Source: an uncultured Clostridia bacterium
Lineage (GTDB): Bacteria; Bacillota; Clostridia; Oscillospirales; Acutalibacteraceae
Assembly: GCA_947165755.1 (NCBI GenBank)
Contig: CAMVBR010000002.1
Span: 1-48,000 of the forward strand
Direction of reading: 5' to 3'
DNA length: 48,000 nt
Part shown: piece by piece, positions 27,000 through 43,032 of the stretch
How the letters are laid out: every line of letters starts with the position of its first letter
Numbering within the stretch: the first letter of the stretch is position 1
Notes under the pieces: generated by a model
What the model saw: the letters and a program-made list of their open reading frames with translations, nothing else
Database searches by the model: none
What the model was told of the DNA's origin: nothing
Translations under genes and position numbers: made by a program

Positions 27000-27034
27000 C
27001 CGGACAGCCTTTATCGCTGCCCGGCTATTTTTAT
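27000..27034 (+). terminator. intrinsic terminator after DapA-family gene
   Basis: GCCGGACAGC-CTTTATC-GCTGCCCGGC-TATTTTT (one bulge). Confidence 0.6.
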
Positions 27035-27810
27035 GAAATCTTTTTTCTCTTCAGGCGAAGCTTATCGGCGATCATAGCGATAAACTCGGAGTTTGTGGGC
27101 TTGCCCCTGGAATTCTGAATGGTATACCCGAAATAAGAGCTGAGCACGTCAATATCCCCTCGGTCCCACGCAACCTCGATCGCGTGGCGGATCGCCCGCT
27201 CCACGCGCGATGCAGTCGTATTAAACGTTTTAGCTACGGTGGGATAGAGCACTTTCGTTACCGAGCTCATCATATCGGGCGCGTTGACCGTAAGAATAAT
27301 GGCCGCACGCAAATACTGATATCCCTTTATATGCGCAGGCACGCCGAGCTCGTGCATTATATCGGAAACAACGATCTCCAGATCTGTATCCACCCCCGCG
27401 TTCAACTTGACGACGGCGCTTCCGTTCTTGTTTTCAATACCCGAAAGCCCTGCGATCCGCTCGGTCATAAAGCCGACGTCCACAGGCTTGATAAAATAGT
27501 AATCTGCGCCGGAGTTCAAAAGCTGCTGTTCAAACATACCGTTCTCCACGCCGGACAACACGACGGTAACAGGGCGTTTCTTCATTTTCAGCGTCGGCAT
27601 CAGCTTGAGAACGGCAAGCGCGTCAAAATGAGAAAGGAACGCCTCGGTCACAAATATATCAGGCGAACAGGTTTCAAGCGCTTTTACCACTTGAGAGCCG
27701 TCTCTGGGAGAGGTAACGCATTCAAAACCATAGGTGCGGAATGAGGATACGACGTTCTTCAAAAATTCACCGTTATCCTCTGCAATAAGTACTTTTTTCT
27801 GTGTTTGCAT
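27031..27810 (-). CDS. spo0A: stage 0 sporulation protein A homolog with Glu at the phosphoacceptor position
   Basis: C-terminal [19 protein letters not shown]...[75 protein letters not shown] is diagnostic of Spo0A; N-terminal receiver-like domain. Confidence 0.97.
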
Positions 27811-28042
27811 TGTTTTTTCTCCATTTCATTTTTAATTCAGCCCATATAAATCTGAAACGACACCGAAAAACAGCACTTGATTCAATTTTCCGAAAAAATC
27901 GAAGAAACCGTGAGAACCACGTTTCTGCCATATTATACCATTTCATTTTGTGAATTTCAATAGATTTTCAAAATTTTTTGTTATTTTTTGCCATTATTAT
28001 TTTTTTTATATTTATTTGTTTTTTATTACCATTCTTTAAGGG

Positions 28043-28076
28043 CTAAAAAAAAGAGAAAGCCGTGTTTGGCTTTCTC
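28043..28076 (-). terminator. intrinsic terminator for the recO operon
   Basis: Minus strand GAGAAAGCC-AAACAC-GGCTTTCTC-TTTTTTTT. Confidence 0.85.
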
Positions 28077-28092
28077 ACTTATGCGATCATGG

Positions 28093-28839
28093 TTATATTA
28101 CGGCCATCCAGAAAAATTCAAGCAAACGGAATTTCACCTGAAAAACGTTTTGAAGATACGTCTCCGTTAACAGGGTAAGCGGACGAAGCAATTCGGAGTT
28201 CAACTGGAACGAAAACACTTTCTCAAACGGGGAAAAAACGATATGCCGCATCGCGGCAACCACAGCAAGCGGCACGTCGGGTGCATCTCCGCGCCTGCCG
28301 CAGTTCTTGCATAATAAATCGCCGGTAAGGCAATTAAAATACATGATATCAGTCTCAAAAGCACCGCACTCCGCGCAGGCGTGTATCGGCGGCGCATAAC
28401 CCGAAAGCACAGCGATCTGCAGTTCAAAAACGGCCTTGATGAGCAAAATCGGCCTGCGATCGCCGCACAGCAGATACAGCGCGTTCAAGGTCAACCGCAG
28501 ATATTCCTCTTCCGATTCCCCTTCGGGGACCGTTTTCAGCAGCACCTCGCAAAAATACTGCGCGAGCGTCATTTTCGGCATATCTTCACGAAGCGAAAAG
28601 AAGAGTTCTTTTACATCCGCCTCGTTGATATGATACACCTCGTTTTTTTCTGTAAAAGAAAAATTGCAGTATGAAAACAGAGAGCATCCGGCGTGCAGCT
28701 TGCTTTTCATGCCTCTGGCGCCTTTCGCAAACGCCCGCAGAATGCCCCTGGAACGGGTGAGCACAAATACGATCAGATCCGACTCCCCCGTGACCTTTGT
28801 TTTGATTACGATACCGTCCGCATCAAACTTTTCCATCAA
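28093..28839 (-). CDS. recO: DNA repair protein RecO
   Basis: DGIVIKTKVTGESDLIVFVLTRSRGILRAFAKGARGMKSK, CAECG...CKNCG zinc motif; adjacent to era. Confidence 0.95.
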   Translation of the reverse strand: MMEKFDADGIVIKTKVTGESDLIVFVLTRSRGILRAFAKGARGMKSKLHAGCSLFSYCNFSFTEKNEVYHINEADVKELFFSLREDMPKMTLAQYFCEVLLKTVPEGESEEEYLRLTLNALYLLCGDRRPILLIKAVFELQIAVLSGYAPPIHACAECGAFETDIMYFNCLTGDLLCKNCGRRGDAPDVPLAVVAAMRHIVFSPFEKVFSFQLNSELLRPLTLLTETYLQNVFQVKFRLLEFFWMAVI

Positions 28840-29738
28840 TCAAGACCGAAATTGCGGATCAGGCCCTCACGGTTCCGCCAATCTTCCTTTACCTTGACCC
28901 AGCATTTCAGATTGATCTTAACACCGAAAAACCGTTCAAGATCGATCCTGGCGCCGGTAGAGATCTTCTTGAGCATGGAACCGTTTTTGCCGATAATGAT
29001 CCCTTTGTGACTCTCTTTTTCACAGTAGATCGTGGCTTCAATATCAAGGATATCCGCTTCATCCCGTTCCCTGAACTTTTCTATCGCAACTGCGGTTCCG
29101 TGCGGCACTTCATTATCCAGATACATCAGCAGCTTTTCCCGGATATACTCGGCGGCAAGCGCCTTTTCGGGCTGATCGGTGAGAGTATCGTCGGCAAAAA
29201 AGTGTTCGCAGGGCACGCAGAGTTTTTTCAGCTCGTCCTTCAGCTCGTTCATACCGCTGCCATCCTTTGCGCTCACAGGCACAACGGCCGAAAAATCGCA
29301 AAGCGAGGCGAACGCCGCGATTCTTGAAAGCAGAAGCGTTTTATTTTCTATCGTATCGATCTTATTGATAGCCAGGATCGCGGGGATCCCCTCTTTTTTG
29401 ATCCTCTTTATCAGCGTCAGCTCGGCTTCGCGGATCTCGCCCTTTGGCTCGGTAACCAGCATGCAGGCGTCCACGTCGCGCAGACCGGCGGAAACGGCTT
29501 TCACCATTTTTTCACCGAGTTTCGTTTTCGGCGAATGATACCCCGGGGTATCCGTAAACACAAGCTGCGTCTCTTCCTCTGTAAGTACGCCGAGGATCCG
29601 GGTACGGGTCGTTTGCGGTTTCGGGGAAACAATGGCGATCTTTTCTCCCAACAGCCGGTTCAGAATCGAAGATTTGCCCACGTTCGGGCAGCCTACGATT
29701 GCAACGAACGCGCTTTTTGGTTCTTTACTCATACTCAT
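28836..29738 (-). CDS. era: GTPase Era
   Basis: VGCPNVGKSSILNRLLGEKIAIVSPKPQTTRTRI, DTPG, NKID, KH-domain IIGKNGSMLKKISTGARIDLERFFG. Confidence 0.98.
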   Translation of the reverse strand: MSMSKEPKSAFVAIVGCPNVGKSSILNRLLGEKIAIVSPKPQTTRTRILGVLTEEETQLVFTDTPGYHSPKTKLGEKMVKAVSAGLRDVDACMLVTEPKGEIREAELTLIKRIKKEGIPAILAINKIDTIENKTLLLSRIAAFASLCDFSAVVPVSAKDGSGMNELKDELKKLCVPCEHFFADDTLTDQPEKALAAEYIREKLLMYLDNEVPHGTAVAIEKFRERDEADILDIEATIYCEKESHKGIIIGKNGSMLKKISTGARIDLERFFGVKINLKCWVKVKEDWRNREGLIRNFGLD

Positions 29739-30247
29739 TCCTCATCCATATAATAGCTGGCGTTGCGCTTCAATCCGAGCTGCGTGAGCACTTCTTCTTC
29801 CTTCTCGCGCATATGCACAGCCTCAATGCCGCCGTTTACGTGATCGTACCCCAACAGGTGCAGCATGGAATGCACGGAAAGGAAGGCAATCTCGCGTTCC
29901 AGCGAATGGCCGTATTCCTCCGCCTGCTCCATCGCCTTTTCCACGGAGATCACGATATCGCCGAGCATATACGCGCCTGTATCGGGGTTTACGTCATATT
30001 CTCCGTTTTCCCCTAACGGAAAAGATAACACGTCCGTCGCCTTGTCGATGTTTCTGTGTTCACGGTTCAACGCTCGGATCATTTCATTGTCTACGAATCT
30101 GACGCTGATCTCTGCGGACCCATGAAACTGCTCCAGCCGCAGCACAGCAACACAGCTGCGGCGAATAAGCAGCCGTACCTGTGAAGGGATCTTCACCGTT
30201 TTCTGGTCGTTTGAAATAATCACTTTGATTTTATCTGTCATGTGCAT
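29735..30247 (-). CDS. ybeY: rRNA maturation RNase YbeY
   Basis: ALNREHRNIDKATDVLSFP, LGDIVIS, SVHSMLHLLGYDH metal motif. Confidence 0.96.
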   Translation of the reverse strand: MHMTDKIKVIISNDQKTVKIPSQVRLLIRRSCVAVLRLEQFHGSAEISVRFVDNEMIRALNREHRNIDKATDVLSFPLGENGEYDVNPDTGAYMLGDIVISVEKAMEQAEEYGHSLEREIAFLSVHSMLHLLGYDHVNGGIEAVHMREKEEEVLTQLGLKRNASYYMDEE

Positions 30248-30317
30248 CCCCTTTTCTATAAATAATTAAATTCACTTTTCCCCGGATCTGAAAGCGCCCA
30301 AATGAGCAAGTATCTAC

Positions 30318-31277
30318 TTAGCTCTTCGGCTTTTCGGCGTGTTCATACGCCCGTATGATATCCTGCACCAGCTTATGCCGGACCACGTCTTTCTCGGTGA
30401 ATCGAACCGCCTTGATATCCTCTATATTCTTTAATATCCTTACTGCTTCCTTCAACCCCGATTTTTTGCCGTCGGGAAGGTCGATCTGCGTAATATCTCC
30501 CGTTACCACGATTTTTGAGTTGAAGCCGAGTCGGGTCAGGAACATTTTCATCTGCTCCGGCGTAGTATTCTGCGCCTCGTCAAGAATAATAAAGCTGTCG
30601 TCAAGCGTACGTCCGCGCATATATGCCAAGGGCGCGACCTCAATGCTTCCCTTTTCCTGATATTTTTGGAAATTATCCGCCCCCAGCATTTCAAACAGGG
30701 CGTCGTACAACGGACGCAGATACGGATCTACCTTTTGCTGCAGGTCCCCGGGCAAAAAACCGAGCTTTTCACCCGCTTCCACGGCCGGCCGTGTAAGAAT
30801 GATACGGCTTACTTCTTTTGCGCGGAACGCCTTGACCGCCATCGCAACCGCAAGATACGTTTTACCCGTACCTGCGGGGCCAACGCCGAATACGATGGTA
30901 TGATTTGCGATCTGCTCTATATAATTCTTCTGCCCCAGCGTTTTCGGTTTTACCGGCTTGCCGCTCATGGTGATACAGATACAGTCCGAAGAAAGGGATG
31001 AGAGCTTTTCTTCGCTGCCTTCGTTAACAAGCGAAATGCAGTAACGTACGTTTTGCTCATTCAGCTCTTCGCCCTTATTTATCAGCATCAAAAGGCCTTC
31101 CAGCGCTTTTGCGGCGCAGCTGACCCTGTCGGGCTCTCCGGTGATTTTTATAACCGAACCCCGGTTCACGATCCTCACACCGTACTCGTTCTCGATCAGC
31201 TTTACGTTTTCGTCAAAGCTGCCGAACAGGCCGACCGCATCCTCCATGCGTTCTATATTAATGATTTGCTCATACAT
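30318..31277 (-). CDS. PhoH family ATPase
   Basis: KPKTLGQKNYIEQIANHTIVFGVGPAGTGKTYLAVAMAVKA, FIILDEAQNTTPEQMKMFLTRLGF. Confidence 0.95.
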   Translation of the reverse strand: MYEQIINIERMEDAVGLFGSFDENVKLIENEYGVRIVNRGSVIKITGEPDRVSCAAKALEGLLMLINKGEELNEQNVRYCISLVNEGSEEKLSSLSSDCICITMSGKPVKPKTLGQKNYIEQIANHTIVFGVGPAGTGKTYLAVAMAVKAFRAKEVSRIILTRPAVEAGEKLGFLPGDLQQKVDPYLRPLYDALFEMLGADNFQKYQEKGSIEVAPLAYMRGRTLDDSFIILDEAQNTTPEQMKMFLTRLGFNSKIVVTGDITQIDLPDGKKSGLKEAVRILKNIEDIKAVRFTEKDVVRHKLVQDIIRAYEHAEKPKS

Positions 31278-31295
31278 TGGATCTGTTTTCTCCCA

Positions 31296-31859
31296 TCATA
31301 ACTTCAGAGATTCGATCACGCCGGAATAAAGATTCCCGGGGGACGCCATGAAGGAATCCGCTACGGCGTTCGCCTGAATGCTGTCTGAGGCATAGAGAAG
31401 CGTTTCCATCATAACAGTATTCCCGTCCGTGATCGTAAGCTTTACGTGATATCCTTTTTTCAAACGGATGATCTCAGCTTTTGCCCCCCTGGCCGCCCGT
31501 TCACGCGCAAGAAGCTCCAAGGCGCTTGCGACCGCGGTTTTGCGCACGACCTCGGGAAGGTCGGTTTCCAGCCTGTCGGCAACCTCGCGTCCTTTTTGCG
31601 TCAGCGAAAAATACTCGTCGTCCTCACGCACGTCGCTTGAGATCAGGCCGTCCTCCTGCAAAACGCTTAGGGCATCGTTCACCTCGAAAAAATTCGCCAG
31701 GGACGTACTCTGCAGCACCTCGTTCAAGCCTGATTTCGAAAAAGGGACGTCAAGACTTTTCAGAATATAACACAACAAAATGCGGATGTCTCCTTTGTTG
31801 CGCATACCGAAAACAGTGATCCCCTCCGTAAGCGCGTCATATTTTTTTTCCATAATCAA
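31296..31859 (-). CDS. DUF4364-like protein
   Basis: DIRILLCYILKSLDVPFSKSGLNEVLQ...NFFEVNDALSVLQEDGLI...YFSLTQKGREVADRLETDLP. Confidence 0.75.
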   Translation of the reverse strand: MIMEKKYDALTEGITVFGMRNKGDIRILLCYILKSLDVPFSKSGLNEVLQSTSLANFFEVNDALSVLQEDGLISSDVREDDEYFSLTQKGREVADRLETDLPEVVRKTAVASALELLARERAARGAKAEIIRLKKGYHVKLTITDGNTVMMETLLYASDSIQANAVADSFMASPGNLYSGVIESLKL

Positions 31860-31867
31860 CTCCGGCT

Positions 31868-34012
31868 TCAGTTTATTCTCAGAAAATCATACGGCGGCAC
31901 GGAAACGCTGCCGATATTCACGGAATAATTATTATAGTTCACGTATACGATCGCGCCGTTGTCATACGTTACAACGGTCACGCCGTCATTCACAGCTTCA
32001 TGTCCCACGATCCTGCGATCCGAAAGATCCGCCATCGTCTGCGATGCCCGGACGTAAAAATCCGCAACGTCCGAATACGTTCTTTCGTAATAAAACGCGG
32101 ATGAAGGAAGAAAATCCCATTCCACCGCAAGGCTCGCGCCGTATTCCACGCTTTTCAGCATGGAAAGGACGGGGATCTCCGCTTTGTTGCACGCGCCCAT
32201 GGAATACACAACGGACCCATGCAATATCATTTGCAGCAAAGGCACGGGCGTATAAGCGGCGGAGGACGCAAAAACCGTTGTTTCCGGCAAAGAAAGAATA
32301 CCGTCGGCATTTTTCAGAAACCGGAAGCCGCCGCCGTTTAGGCACACACGCCCCCGCGCGGCAATCGACGAAAGCCCGGCGCCGATCAGCCCAGCCGTTT
32401 TTTCAGCCCCGACAGCTGCGTCAGCATAAACAAACGAGGCGTCGTTTACCGCAATGCCGTCGAGCGGTAAACCGGTTGTACTTTGCAGAAGACGGAGCAC
32501 GTGCTTTTCGATCCGCGCCGAAGATGCGGCATAACGCTTTCCGGGGCTTGCGGAAACAAAGGGGTAAAGCGGATTCTTAATTTCGACGATCTGTTTCTTT
32601 CCCTGCAGATCCACCGAGGCAAACGCCGGGGAAGATTCCGTAAACAGATTCACGGACGCAAAAACAGGTATATTCTGCGCGTTTGCGTATTCACAGAGCG
32701 AGCGAAGGTCTTTTTTTCCTCCTGCGGAACGGATCACGTGATAGTTCATCGTCTGATACAAACCGCCGTTAAAAATCCCGTTCAGATACAGGCAGATCCC
32801 GTTTACACCTTTTGCCTTGAGCAGCCCGGTGACCTCTTCCGCCTGCTCGAACGTGCCTACGCTTGTTGCGCGTTTTCCATCAACGCTGAAAAGGAACGAC
32901 ACGTTCATGGGATATTCGCCCTTTGCGGCGGTAGTCTCCGTAAGAAATCCTGCGCGGATCAGCATTTCCCTGAACGCCGCAGCCATCGGGGCATATTCGC
33001 CCGACGTTCCGTGAAGAATCTGATAACACACCTCGATCGTTCCCGTATAGGTCGAGCCAAACATATAAGTGTTTTTCGTTGTCTGATATGGCGTGATATT
33101 GAATTCGGGGTATACAAGATTGACGCCGTCCGTGTTTGCCGTCGCTCGAATCGCACGCACAGAAGCGATGGCGTCGCCCTTTGTGATCAACCCTGCCGCG
33201 GATACGTTACCGTGGCTTACGCCGAAGCAGCCGACCGCTGCCGGCGCCGTATTGACGCCGTTCTCATTGCTGTAAAGCCGGAAGGTAAGGTTTTGTGTTT
33301 CATAATCCGATCGATCCGTACGGATCAAAGCGCCGCATCCGTCGGGCACAACAAGATAGTCTCCGAATCCTGCGGAAGCGTCTTTTGTGCCGTCGGGAAG
33401 CGCGCCGAAATACGGCAATACCGCCAATGATTCCAACACATATCCATCCGACACGAAAATTTCATCACATTCCACGGAAACGCGCAGTTCATTGTCTTGC
33501 AGAGTAAATACAACCGGGATCCGTACATACAGCTCACCCGGCGCAAGCGTTTCCGGCGTTTTCGCCGCAACGGAAGCAAGATCGGACATACCGTAAACGA
33601 TCTTTAACCCGGCGTCTGGTTTTTCATAACGGAAACCGCCGTATGCCACGCTGTGGTCCTGCGTATTCAGATAACACCGATCCTTCTCCGATACAACGGC
33701 GGCGGTCAGCACCGCGCCGGATAAATTCCAGTATAACGGCAGCGCAGTCCAGTAAGCGTCCGCTTCCTTATCAAGTACGGCAACGCCTCCCGTTCGCCGA
33801 TCGAACAGCAAAGACAGCCGTTCGGATGAAATAATTGTCTCAAAATCATCGGCAGTCGCCATGTGCAGTGCGGTGGTACCTACCGCGCCGCTGCGGATCT
33901 CGCTGCTGAGAGGAAACGAACGTACACCCGCGGGACGGCGCGCGCAGGCAGATAAAAACAATTCAATCAATATCAGCACTATGGCAAGGGGCCATTTTAA
34001 CTTCCGGGTCAT
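31868..34012 (-). CDS. secreted lipoprotein, DUF5696-like
   Basis: Lipobox LSAC; ERLSLLFDRRTGGVAVLDKEADAYWTA pattern; YGASLAVEWDFLPSSAFYYERTYSDVADFY. Family call by recollection. Confidence 0.6.
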   Translation of the reverse strand: MTRKLKWPLAIVLILIELFLSACARRPAGVRSFPLSSEIRSGAVGTTALHMATADDFETIISSERLSLLFDRRTGGVAVLDKEADAYWTALPLYWNLSGAVLTAAVVSEKDRCYLNTQDHSVAYGGFRYEKPDAGLKIVYGMSDLASVAAKTPETLAPGELYVRIPVVFTLQDNELRVSVECDEIFVSDGYVLESLAVLPYFGALPDGTKDASAGFGDYLVVPDGCGALIRTDRSDYETQNLTFRLYSNENGVNTAPAAVGCFGVSHGNVSAAGLITKGDAIASVRAIRATANTDGVNLVYPEFNITPYQTTKNTYMFGSTYTGTIEVCYQILHGTSGEYAPMAAAFREMLIRAGFLTETTAAKGEYPMNVSFLFSVDGKRATSVGTFEQAEEVTGLLKAKGVNGICLYLNGIFNGGLYQTMNYHVIRSAGGKKDLRSLCEYANAQNIPVFASVNLFTESSPAFASVDLQGKKQIVEIKNPLYPFVSASPGKRYAASSARIEKHVLRLLQSTTGLPLDGIAVNDASFVYADAAVGAEKTAGLIGAGLSSIAARGRVCLNGGGFRFLKNADGILSLPETTVFASSAAYTPVPLLQMILHGSVVYSMGACNKAEIPVLSMLKSVEYGASLAVEWDFLPSSAFYYERTYSDVADFYVRASQTMADLSDRRIVGHEAVNDGVTVVTYDNGAIVYVNYNNYSVNIGSVSVPPYDFLRIN

Positions 34013-39843: not shown

Positions 39844-40371
39844 TGTGTTCCTCCGGCACCGTAATGACAAAAAGAAGTATAAACGAAAAGAGGGATGAAT
39901 GCAAGCAATTTTCGACAGATTCTTTAAAATCTATGTTTTGCCTATTTATTTGTACAATACACCGGAATACTGTTTTAAATTCTTTTACAAAATGAAACGA
40001 ATAATGCTCGTAGTGCTGTATTGGTATTATCTTTACACTTATTATATTAGCAATACAATGGCTTAATTTATCTGATATTATCAACGTCTTTTACCATTTT
40101 ATATATAATTTATTTTTTCGTCTTTCTGTATTGTTATTTACTTTACATATATCATTGTGCAATTTGTACAAATGCTGTAATTTTCGATTTTTCGCATCGG
40201 AAATTGCTTAAATTAATATTTAAAATGAAAATCATATTTTACAAATTTTTTTTATAAAGATTGTAAAAAACCACAAGGTAAAATCAGTTTACAATTTGTT
40301 GATATTGTGATAAAATAACCATGTTAGTTTCTCCGTATCAGGAAAACAAGCAATTCAAAACGAAAGGAAAC

Positions 40372-43032
40372 ATGAAAATGAAAAAATCCACCAAGTTTAT
40401 CAGCTTGCTGCTGGCAGTCATCATGGTATTTTCCGTGATCCCAATGACGGCGTTTGCGTCTCCGATAAAGAACTCAAGCACCGTTAATGATTTGATCAAG
40501 AATGATAGCCTTGCAAACATTGTAGAGTATTTGTTGACGAAGATCAATGATCGCAAAACAGCTATCACCGGCACTGTGCTCCGTCTTGTTTTTTCTTTCT
40601 TAACGGATAACGAAGATCTCCAGAAAGAAATCGGCGGGAAAGACGTTTTTGCATTAAAAGACGCCGAAGCTGCGAAAGCACTTCTTGACTGGCTCGACCA
40701 CACCATTCTCCCTGCCCTTCAGGCAAAGCTTGATTCGAACGATACAGTTAAAGATATTCTCGACACATTGAATAATGTTACGCCGATAACCGTTAAAGTC
40801 AACAGCGTTGACAATCTTTTTAAAACTTTGACAGATGACGTTCCGATCCTCGGAACCATTAAAACCCTTTCGCTTGGCGCAGTTAGTGTCGGTGATTTAA
40901 ATTCCCTTAATGTCAACGCTTTGAATACAAAAAGAGCAAACGGCGACTTAAATGTCGTTTATGCATTCCTTCAGTTCATTGCGGATAATACTTCTTTGAT
41001 AAAGAAAGCTCTGACCGGCAATCTTGATCTTGGTATTCTGAACAACAGGATCGACGCTCTTGACAATATTCTCAACCTTATTACTGAGCTGCCCTCCTTT
41101 ATCAAGAGCGCGTTGTATAAGCTTATTGATAAAGACGCTGAAATGGGCAAATTTGAAGAAGGCAAAATGGGCGGTGATTGGGCAAATTCCGCATATAAGG
41201 GATTTTCTGCCGACCAACTGCTTGCCGCTGCGCTCATCAAATTGATCAATCAGAATGATGATCCTGTTTCCGACAAAGAAGCAAACGAAGTGCTCAATCT
41301 GAGCTTTTACGGTTTGCTTACCGAGTACGGCCCCGTGCTATATGAGAAATTTGCAGTGACCGCGCTGAACGATCACCTTCAGGGATGGCTCGATATGGTT
41401 CCCGGCGACGCCAGAAAAGAATTTGTTGCCACAGCTCCCACGCTTGACGCCGACACCTTCAAAGACATTTTTGCCGGCGCGGGCGACAGCGGCTTCCTCG
41501 GCCAGCTCAACAATATCGTAGTTAAAATCGCAAAGCTCGTTCTTGCCGACAAGACCTTCAAAGCGCTCGCGCTTGAAAATGACGCCGGCGACAACAGCAA
41601 GCTCAACGCCAACCTGACCAAGATCGCCCGCTACGCGCTGCCGATCCTGATCTCCCTTGAAGGCGAAATCGGCTATACGTTCCCCGAAGCAATTAAGAAG
41701 GCCGATCCCGCAAAGCTTTCCCTTGCGGATATGGCCGTCTACATTCTGAAGCCCTTCTTCACCACTTGGTTCAAAGACAGCGCCAACTTCGATCAGAAGG
41801 TTGTGGACGCCGCAGATTCTCTTCCCGCATTGGCTCTTCTTGCAGTGAATTACACCGCCACCAATGACGAATGGCTGCATCTTGATTACACCTTTGATAA
41901 GGTTGCGGCAAAGGACGTTAAGGGTATTTCCGAGAACGACGCCACCAACAAGGTGCTCGCTACCGCTGCCGGCATCGCCATCGGCGCGCTGAAGCACAAC
42001 GCCGATTCCATTCACTTTACCGCCAAGGTTGACGGCAAGACCTGGGATAACGCCCTGATCGAAGTAGAAAACTGGGGCCTTGACTTTGTAACCGGTCTTC
42101 CCGCCGTTGCCGGAGTACACGAGCTGAGAAACGCGAACAGCTACGGTCCGTTCTATAAAGTAAATGTTCTGCTCAACGAACTGATCAACTTTGCTTTCCT
42201 GAACAACGTAGACAGCAAGACCTTCAAGCTGGATCTTGAGAAGCTGCTCAAGGAAGGCGTTCTGAAGAACCTCTATGAGTTCGATATCGCCGGCGTGATC
42301 GGCATTTTCCAGAAGAACACCAAGGATGGCAACGTTCTGAACGGCAAGATCGTCACTTCCGTGATCGGCATCGTTGACCGCATCCTCACTGCGCTGTTTG
42401 AGCACAACTGCGGCACTTCTGCCGGCACTGCGGCTGAAACCGTTGACGATCCCGTCGACCCCTGCACAAAGGGCATTAAATACGATTACACCTATTGCAA
42501 GGTTTGCGGCGCTTACAACGGCAAATACAATAAGCTGACCTTCGGCAGAACCGAAACCGCCCAATCCTGGAACCACCACAAAACAGTAGACCGTAAAACC
42601 GAGAAAACCGTAAAAGCCACGGAAAAGACCTGCACGAAGCAGATCATCACGGAAAAGGTCTGCACCGTGTGCAACAAGGTTATCTCCACCAAAACGGAAA
42701 CGCCTGTACACAAGATGGTAAAACAGTCTGAATACGTTTACAAATGCTCCGTTTGCGGATATATCGTAGACAAAACGCCCACGAAACCCGACGACCCCGT
42801 AGAACCCGAAGTACCTACCTACAAGCTCGGCGACGTTGACAACAGCGGCAAGGTTGACACCTCCGACGCACGCTTGGCGCTGCGCAGATCGATCAATCTT
42901 GAAAAATACGCAGTAGGCAGTCCCGAATATATTGCCTGCGACGTAGACAAGAACGGTAAGGTAGAAACAAAGGATGCGCGCTTTATTCTGCGCCACGCCA
43001 TCAACCTGAAGGATCCCGAGATCGTCTGGTGA
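40372..43032 (+). CDS. large secreted protein with cysteine-knuckle repeats and C-terminal dockerin-type domain
   Basis: Signal peptide MKMKKSTKFISLLLAVIMVFSVIPMTAFAS; C-terminal LGDVDNSGKVDTSDARLALRRSINL...CDVDKNGKVETKDARFILRHAINL; CxxC segments; AAAGGAAAC RBS. Confidence 0.88.
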   Translation: MKMKKSTKFISLLLAVIMVFSVIPMTAFASPIKNSSTVNDLIKNDSLANIVEYLLTKINDRKTAITGTVLRLVFSFLTDNEDLQKEIGGKDVFALKDAEAAKALLDWLDHTILPALQAKLDSNDTVKDILDTLNNVTPITVKVNSVDNLFKTLTDDVPILGTIKTLSLGAVSVGDLNSLNVNALNTKRANGDLNVVYAFLQFIADNTSLIKKALTGNLDLGILNNRIDALDNILNLITELPSFIKSALYKLIDKDAEMGKFEEGKMGGDWANSAYKGFSADQLLAAALIKLINQNDDPVSDKEANEVLNLSFYGLLTEYGPVLYEKFAVTALNDHLQGWLDMVPGDARKEFVATAPTLDADTFKDIFAGAGDSGFLGQLNNIVVKIAKLVLADKTFKALALENDAGDNSKLNANLTKIARYALPILISLEGEIGYTFPEAIKKADPAKLSLADMAVYILKPFFTTWFKDSANFDQKVVDAADSLPALALLAVNYTATNDEWLHLDYTFDKVAAKDVKGISENDATNKVLATAAGIAIGALKHNADSIHFTAKVDGKTWDNALIEVENWGLDFVTGLPAVAGVHELRNANSYGPFYKVNVLLNELINFAFLNNVDSKTFKLDLEKLLKEGVLKNLYEFDIAGVIGIFQKNTKDGNVLNGKIVTSVIGIVDRILTALFEHNCGTSAGTAAETVDDPVDPCTKGIKYDYTYCKVCGAYNGKYNKLTFGRTETAQSWNHHKTVDRKTEKTVKATEKTCTKQIITEKVCTVCNKVISTKTETPVHKMVKQSEYVYKCSVCGYIVDKTPTKPDDPVEPEVPTYKLGDVDNSGKVDTSDARLALRRSINLEKYAVGSPEYIACDVDKNGKVETKDARFILRHAINLKDPEIVW

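Follow-up and report, generated by a model that had tools for sequence, protein, structure and literature searches.

The window, a stretch of 48,000 nucleotides from an uncultured Clostridia bacterium, contains a gene for a protein of 259 amino acids that consists of a receiver and a DNA-binding domain (Table 1). The whole-length score of this protein with the NCBIfam profile TIGR02875 (spore_0_A) was 268.7 bits, for which the curated equivalog cut-off is 200 bits, and with the Pfam profiles 154 bits were obtained for Spo0A_C and 37.9 bits for Response_reg. The solved Spo0A DNA-binding domains 1lq1 and 1fc3 were matched by its DNA-binding domain with E < 1e-44. Judged by its profile scores, the protein is a genuine Spo0A, an orthologue by descent of the sporulation master regulator of Bacillus subtilis and Clostridioides difficile. 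The interval 28093-34012 (minus strand) holds recO, era, ybeY and phoH consecutively and then DUF4364 and DUF5696 genes. Usually spo0A has spoIVB as a neighbour; in the window spoIVB is not adjacent to it. At 40321-43032 on the plus strand a protein of 903 amino acids is encoded, with a signal-like N-terminus and a dockerin type I domain at its C-terminus.

Table 1. Position of spo0A and its parts in the window.
Feature	Coordinates	Strand	Basis
spo0A, aspartate-less orthologue with Glu56 (259 aa)	27031..27810	-	translation and profile scores
Receiver (REC) domain, residues 6-122	27445..27795	-	Response_reg profile and predicted structure
Codon 56, GAG, Glu at the phosphoacceptor Asp56 site	27643..27645	-	translation, alignment
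Acidic pair Glu11-Asp12, metal-binding (D10-D11 in B. subtilis)	27775..27780	-	translation, alignment
Switch Ser86, retained	27553..27555	-	translation, alignment
Lys108, conserved residue retained	27487..27489	-	translation, alignment
Spo0A_C DNA-binding domain, recognition helix matching B. subtilis	27058..27369	-	profile and alignment
Probable spo0A promoter, TTGAAA-N17-TATAAT, sigmaA-like	27932..27960	-	inferred, read by eye

According to the initial annotation the conserved phosphoacceptor aspartate of this Spo0A has been replaced by a glutamic acid. Translation of the open reading frame bore this out (GAG, 27645-27643, minus strand), and in multiple alignments the glutamic acid of the window protein and its relatives was found in the column of Asp56 of B. 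subtilis Spo0A. By its sequence the protein lacks the canonical Asp56 and has E11, D12, S86 and K108, as had been claimed. Likewise, the loop that reads MPHLDG in canonical Spo0A was indeed found as LSHFDA, and the description of the DNA-binding domain as nearly canonical agreed with the Spo0A_C score and the unchanged recognition helix. The numbering, which was held to run without gaps relative to B. subtilis, does not: the acidic pair is at 11/12 in the window protein and at 10/11 in B. subtilis, which implies a one-residue insertion or deletion between this pair and residue 56. The nearby residues D51 and D63 were considered as replacements, but both are also conserved in canonical Spo0A, and this indicates that no other Asp took over the site. 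With Glu in place of the phosphoacceptor, normal phosphorylation at residue 56 is not possible.

Spo0A sequences gathered from the genus, the family and the order were aligned. Among named sequences the closest Spo0A proteins, with an identity of about 60%, came from uncultured Clostridia/Oscillospiraceae. In the genus 18 full-length proteins formed a clade (support 99) in which 17 have Glu56 and one (L005) has Thr56, together with Leu at the position of Ser86. A 19th genome of this Glu clade contains a Spo0A fragment that also has Glu, and the sister clade of four (L015, L017, L018 and L024) keeps Asp. E56 is thus fixed in the lineage. Of the 17 members with Glu, ten encode it by GAG and seven by GAA; in the Asp clade the codon is GAT. 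The occurrence of Glu in 17 of the 18 orthologues, which come from independent genomes and use both codons, rules out a sequencing or assembly error. The change from Asp56 to Glu arose once, at the base of the clade, and was then held. Because the third codon base changed repeatedly and never back to Asp, the conservation of Glu56 looks like selection for Glu and like neither error nor drift.

A second, canonical Spo0A was not found in the Glu clade. Each of its genomes had one strong Spo0A_C match, which argues against a canonical paralogue that covers for the Glu56 protein. The genome of the window, a draft of 490 contigs that is 83.5% complete, likewise yielded a single Spo0A_C protein. In two of the 26 genomes searched, both incomplete, Spo0A_C was absent. 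In one genus member the sole Spo0A-like protein (G023:C122:268-903) is divergent, with an identity of 30% across residues 47-252, and sporulation markers are present in this genome despite that.

Simple Nei-Gojobori estimates of dN/dS, for which many pairs other than close ones were saturated, amounted in close Glu-clade pairs to about 0.15-0.2 for the receiver and about 0.03-0.1 for the DNA-binding domain; in Asp-clade pairs these values were 0.07-0.10 and 0.04. This indicates purifying selection on both domains, which is somewhat weaker for the receiver. Eighteen receiver columns were invariant in the Glu clade, mostly remote from the active site. Ser86 and Lys108 were retained in nearly all members, and some members have an altered acidic pair, with Met or Gln in L013, L014 and L011. 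The recognition helix is of the B. subtilis type in the Glu and Asp clades, save for one position with Ala, Ser or Pro, and is directly followed by a conserved Ser-to-Asp change. The predicted structure combines the helical Spo0A_C domain with a receiver whose (beta-alpha)5 fold is complete and in which beta3 ends at Glu56, and the mean pLDDT of the receiver was 81-94 per 10-residue block. A Foldseek search with this model returned Spo0A DNA-binding structures and receiver structures, including those of Spo0A (5wq0 and 1qmp). On sequence and model, the window protein has the traits of an aspartate-less receiver, i.e. no phosphorylatable Asp and a predicted fold that is retained.

A receiver that keeps its predicted fold under purifying selection, with most of its invariant columns outside the active site, could sense a small-molecule or protein ligand or be subject to Ser/Thr phosphorylation, by analogy with other pseudo-receivers. 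Such responses are known for the latter (PMC12632262), and in the order the domain has been retained although Asp, Lys or the acidic pair was lost repeatedly. As nothing in the window indicates a ligand or a partner, we put this forward tentatively, as a possibility that falls short of probable. The acidic residues, Ser86 and Lys108 of the window protein could also mean that a histidine kinase still phosphorylates Spo0A, on Glu or on another residue. The active site is devoid of another Asp, however, and the acidic pair is not kept throughout the clade. Moreover, none of 59 genomes of the order, whether of the Asp or the Glu type, yielded a Spo0E-type Spo0A phosphatase; as this holds for Asp types too, it does not distinguish the Glu clade. 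Continued phosphorylation is therefore highly improbable.

Replacement of Asp56 was not confined to the genus. Asp56 was lacking in 37 of the 230 relatives with a letter at this site, the substitutes being Glu (27), Asn (8), Thr (1) and Ser (1). When the tree was computed with the five active-site columns removed, at least 17 changes were required, one reconstruction giving 16 losses and one return. The full five-residue active site, counted with Asp or Glu permitted in the acidic pair, was present in 56 of 113 evenly drawn proteins of the family. For the order's other families the count was 8 of 20, and for the class outside this order 83 of 90, the last sample consisting of better matches to canonical Spo0A and hence favouring canonical sequences. 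By these alignments, decay of the Spo0A active site is common in the whole order, beyond the view of the window. The receiver Lys has been lost in several other lineages of the order (to Met, Ala, Ser, Ile, Leu and others), in some of which Asp56 is missing too (L029, L043, L052, L063, L071, L075, L101, L163, L198, L214, L224 and L240). Clostridium sporosphaeroides DSM 1294 (L075), named after its spores, has Ile at this Lys. The genome paper of HV4-5-B5C, a cultured strain with Asn56, does not mention spore formation. Since Asp56 disappeared on about 16 separate occasions and about half of the order's members are short of active-site residues, it is conceivable, albeit doubtful, that the whole order, including gut spore formers, is abandoning Spo0A phosphorylation and that sporulation would be started there by pseudo-receiver Spo0A proteins that read another signal.

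That Glu is the commonest replacement of Asp56, that it appears to be held by selection in the clade and that Ser86 and Lys108, the would-be holders of its carboxylate, are kept in nearly all members would all suit a Spo0A that is locked in the active state by Glu56 alone and controlled only via its amount. Against such a constitutive phosphomimic, Asn or Ser, which do not mimic a phosphorylated Asp, replace it in other lineages of the order, and L005 has Thr56. Besides, Asp-to-Glu alone was reported to be insufficient for constitutive activity of B. subtilis Spo0A (cited in PMC4395418). The latter implies that phosphomimicry would require the protein to have changed elsewhere as well, and the three observations together suggest that pure phosphomimicry is not the whole story. 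We consider it rather unlikely that Glu56 acts in this strict sense.

The initial annotation also raised the possibility that this Spo0A is undergoing degeneration in bacteria that have given up sporulation, for which the sporulation genes in the genomes were to be inspected. In the 19 Glu-clade genomes, with a mean completeness of 85%, SpoIVA was found in 16, SpoIIE in 19, SpoIIR in 15 and SASP in 16, and all four were present in each of the six genomes that are at least 95% complete. SpoIIGA adjoins a SigE-like gene, and SigF/SigG-like sigma factors were found as well. The SpoIIE matches, mostly full-length, were below the curated cut-off of the family in every genome of the order, including Asp types. 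The window genome contains SpoIIE, SpoIVA, SpoIIGA-SigE and SASP; SpoIIR was not found in this 83.5% complete MAG, and in a genome of such incompleteness a gene that is not found need not have been lost. Most sporulation markers are also kept in other genomes of the order that lack Asp56. L005 retains the sporulation genes as well, which a mechanism that depends on Glu does not explain.

The spoIIG and spoIIE promoters of B. subtilis are Spo0A-activated sigmaA promoters whose spacer, of 21-22 bp, is unusually long and which carry a 0A box (TGTCGAA; TTCGACA in reverse) at -35. The core TGTCGAA has been confirmed for C. difficile (PMC3485338). Upstream of spoIIGA the pattern NGAC[AG]-N21-TATNAT was present in 21 of 21 genus genomes, Asp and Glu clades together, and each of the other spacings from 13 to 26 occurred in 0-2 genomes. 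In the window genome this sequence reads TGCGACA-N21-TATAAT. Upstream of spoIIE the 21-bp-spaced pattern was found in 11 of 19 genomes (mean of shuffles, 0.17) and a spacing of 22 bp in three further ones. It was not matched upstream of spoIIE in the window genome, where palindromic ATATCGA repeats (L242) occupy the place of the promoter of the relatives. As predicted sites, 0A-like boxes are kept at the sporulation promoters of spoIIGA and spoIIE. A perfect 7-base spoIIGA box was present in 4 of 4 genomes of the Asp clade and in 2 of 14 of the Glu clade (Fisher 0.005, a hint only, since related genomes are not independent), and in the latter it was mostly one or two bases off. Weaker spoIIGA boxes would fit, as a hint, a more active Spo0A.

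This drift of the spoIIGA boxes from the consensus and the somewhat higher dN/dS of the receiver in the Glu clade than in the Asp clade could be taken as signs of a lineage that is losing both Spo0A control and sporulation, Glu56 being one step in this decay. However, the four sporulation markers occur in every near-complete Glu-clade genome, the spoIIGA promoter is conserved, and so are Glu itself and the nearly invariant DNA-binding domain. Loss of sporulation is thus countered across the clade, and decay is an improbable explanation.

The probable sigmaA-like spo0A promoter is similar in most genomes of the genus. Within about 260 bp upstream of spo0A no perfect 0A box was found in either clade, which suggests that feedback of Spo0A on its own gene is absent in the genus. 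A promoter of this kind would be in keeping with control through the amount of a permanently active Spo0A, but the lack of 0A boxes is common to the Asp clade. It is therefore not a response to Glu56, and the boxes at spo0A itself are of no use for telling the clades apart. In most of the genus, i.e. at 27811-28095 of the window and upstream of spo0A in L003-L024, a repeated ATGG...ATATATGG...GAAAT motif accompanies the sigmaA-like promoter. This motif is possibly a site for another regulator.

We favour the reading, with a probability of roughly 0.6, that the window protein is a functional Spo0A orthologue with a pseudo-receiver domain that works without Asp phosphorylation. The Glu56 Spo0A would still start sporulation by binding to 0A boxes as a dimer, and this binding would proceed without phosphorylation of an Asp. 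Probably the receiver is shifted towards its active, dimer-competent state by Glu56 in concert with Ser86 and Lys108, both of which are kept, so that Glu56 would be a partial phosphomimic. Control may have moved to the amount of Spo0A, to a partner or ligand that binds the receiver, or to 0A boxes of lower strength. The pseudo-receiver literature (PMC4395418, PMC12632262) allows for phosphomimicry, control at the expression level and control by a ligand or partner. Sporulation in the Glu clade is probably started otherwise than by the textbook route, although no genus member is known to be in culture or to have been observed with spores. Of the earlier interpretation, the absence of normal phosphorylation at residue 56 and the fixation of Glu in the lineage stand; the suggestion that the lineage no longer sporulates is not supported, in view of the retained sporulation genes, the spoIIGA promoter and the purifying selection on the receiver.

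The window protein shares with known Spo0A the two domains, the recognition helix and the 0A-like target sites. It differs in lacking Asp56, on which known Spo0A depends, and in its changed MPHLDG loop; its gene, in addition, has no perfect 0A box upstream. With the aspartate-less receivers (ALR) and bacterial pseudo-receivers (PsR) described in PMC4395418 and PMC12632262 it has in common a receiver fold without a phosphorylatable Asp; Glu is the commonest replacement among them and several function without phosphate. In their available portions these papers describe no Spo0A orthologue as a member. Unlike in the known cases, the change here affects a developmental master regulator and is recurrent within one order. 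Clostridial Spo0A is activated directly by orphan histidine kinases (PMC11210211). This route, in which likewise no Spo0F/Spo0B phosphorelay is expected, has Spo0A as its entry point but phosphorylates the conserved Asp, which is absent in the window protein. No report of an aspartate-less Spo0A was found in the open literature (subscription papers lay outside this scope). Aspartate-less receivers are known; that they occur in Spo0A, where the change has become fixed in one clade and recurs within the order, appears to be new.

Phosphorylation of the Spo0A Asp has been presented as the shared entry into sporulation in all endospore formers (PMC11210211). A clade that has sporulation genes and a Spo0A-type promoter but lacks this Asp would break that rule, and offers natural material for studying kinase-independent switching of Spo0A. 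It bears on the decision of uncultured gut bacteria to form spores, and hence on their transmission, and on surveys in which sporulation potential is judged by the presence of spo0A (e.g. PMC11536998).
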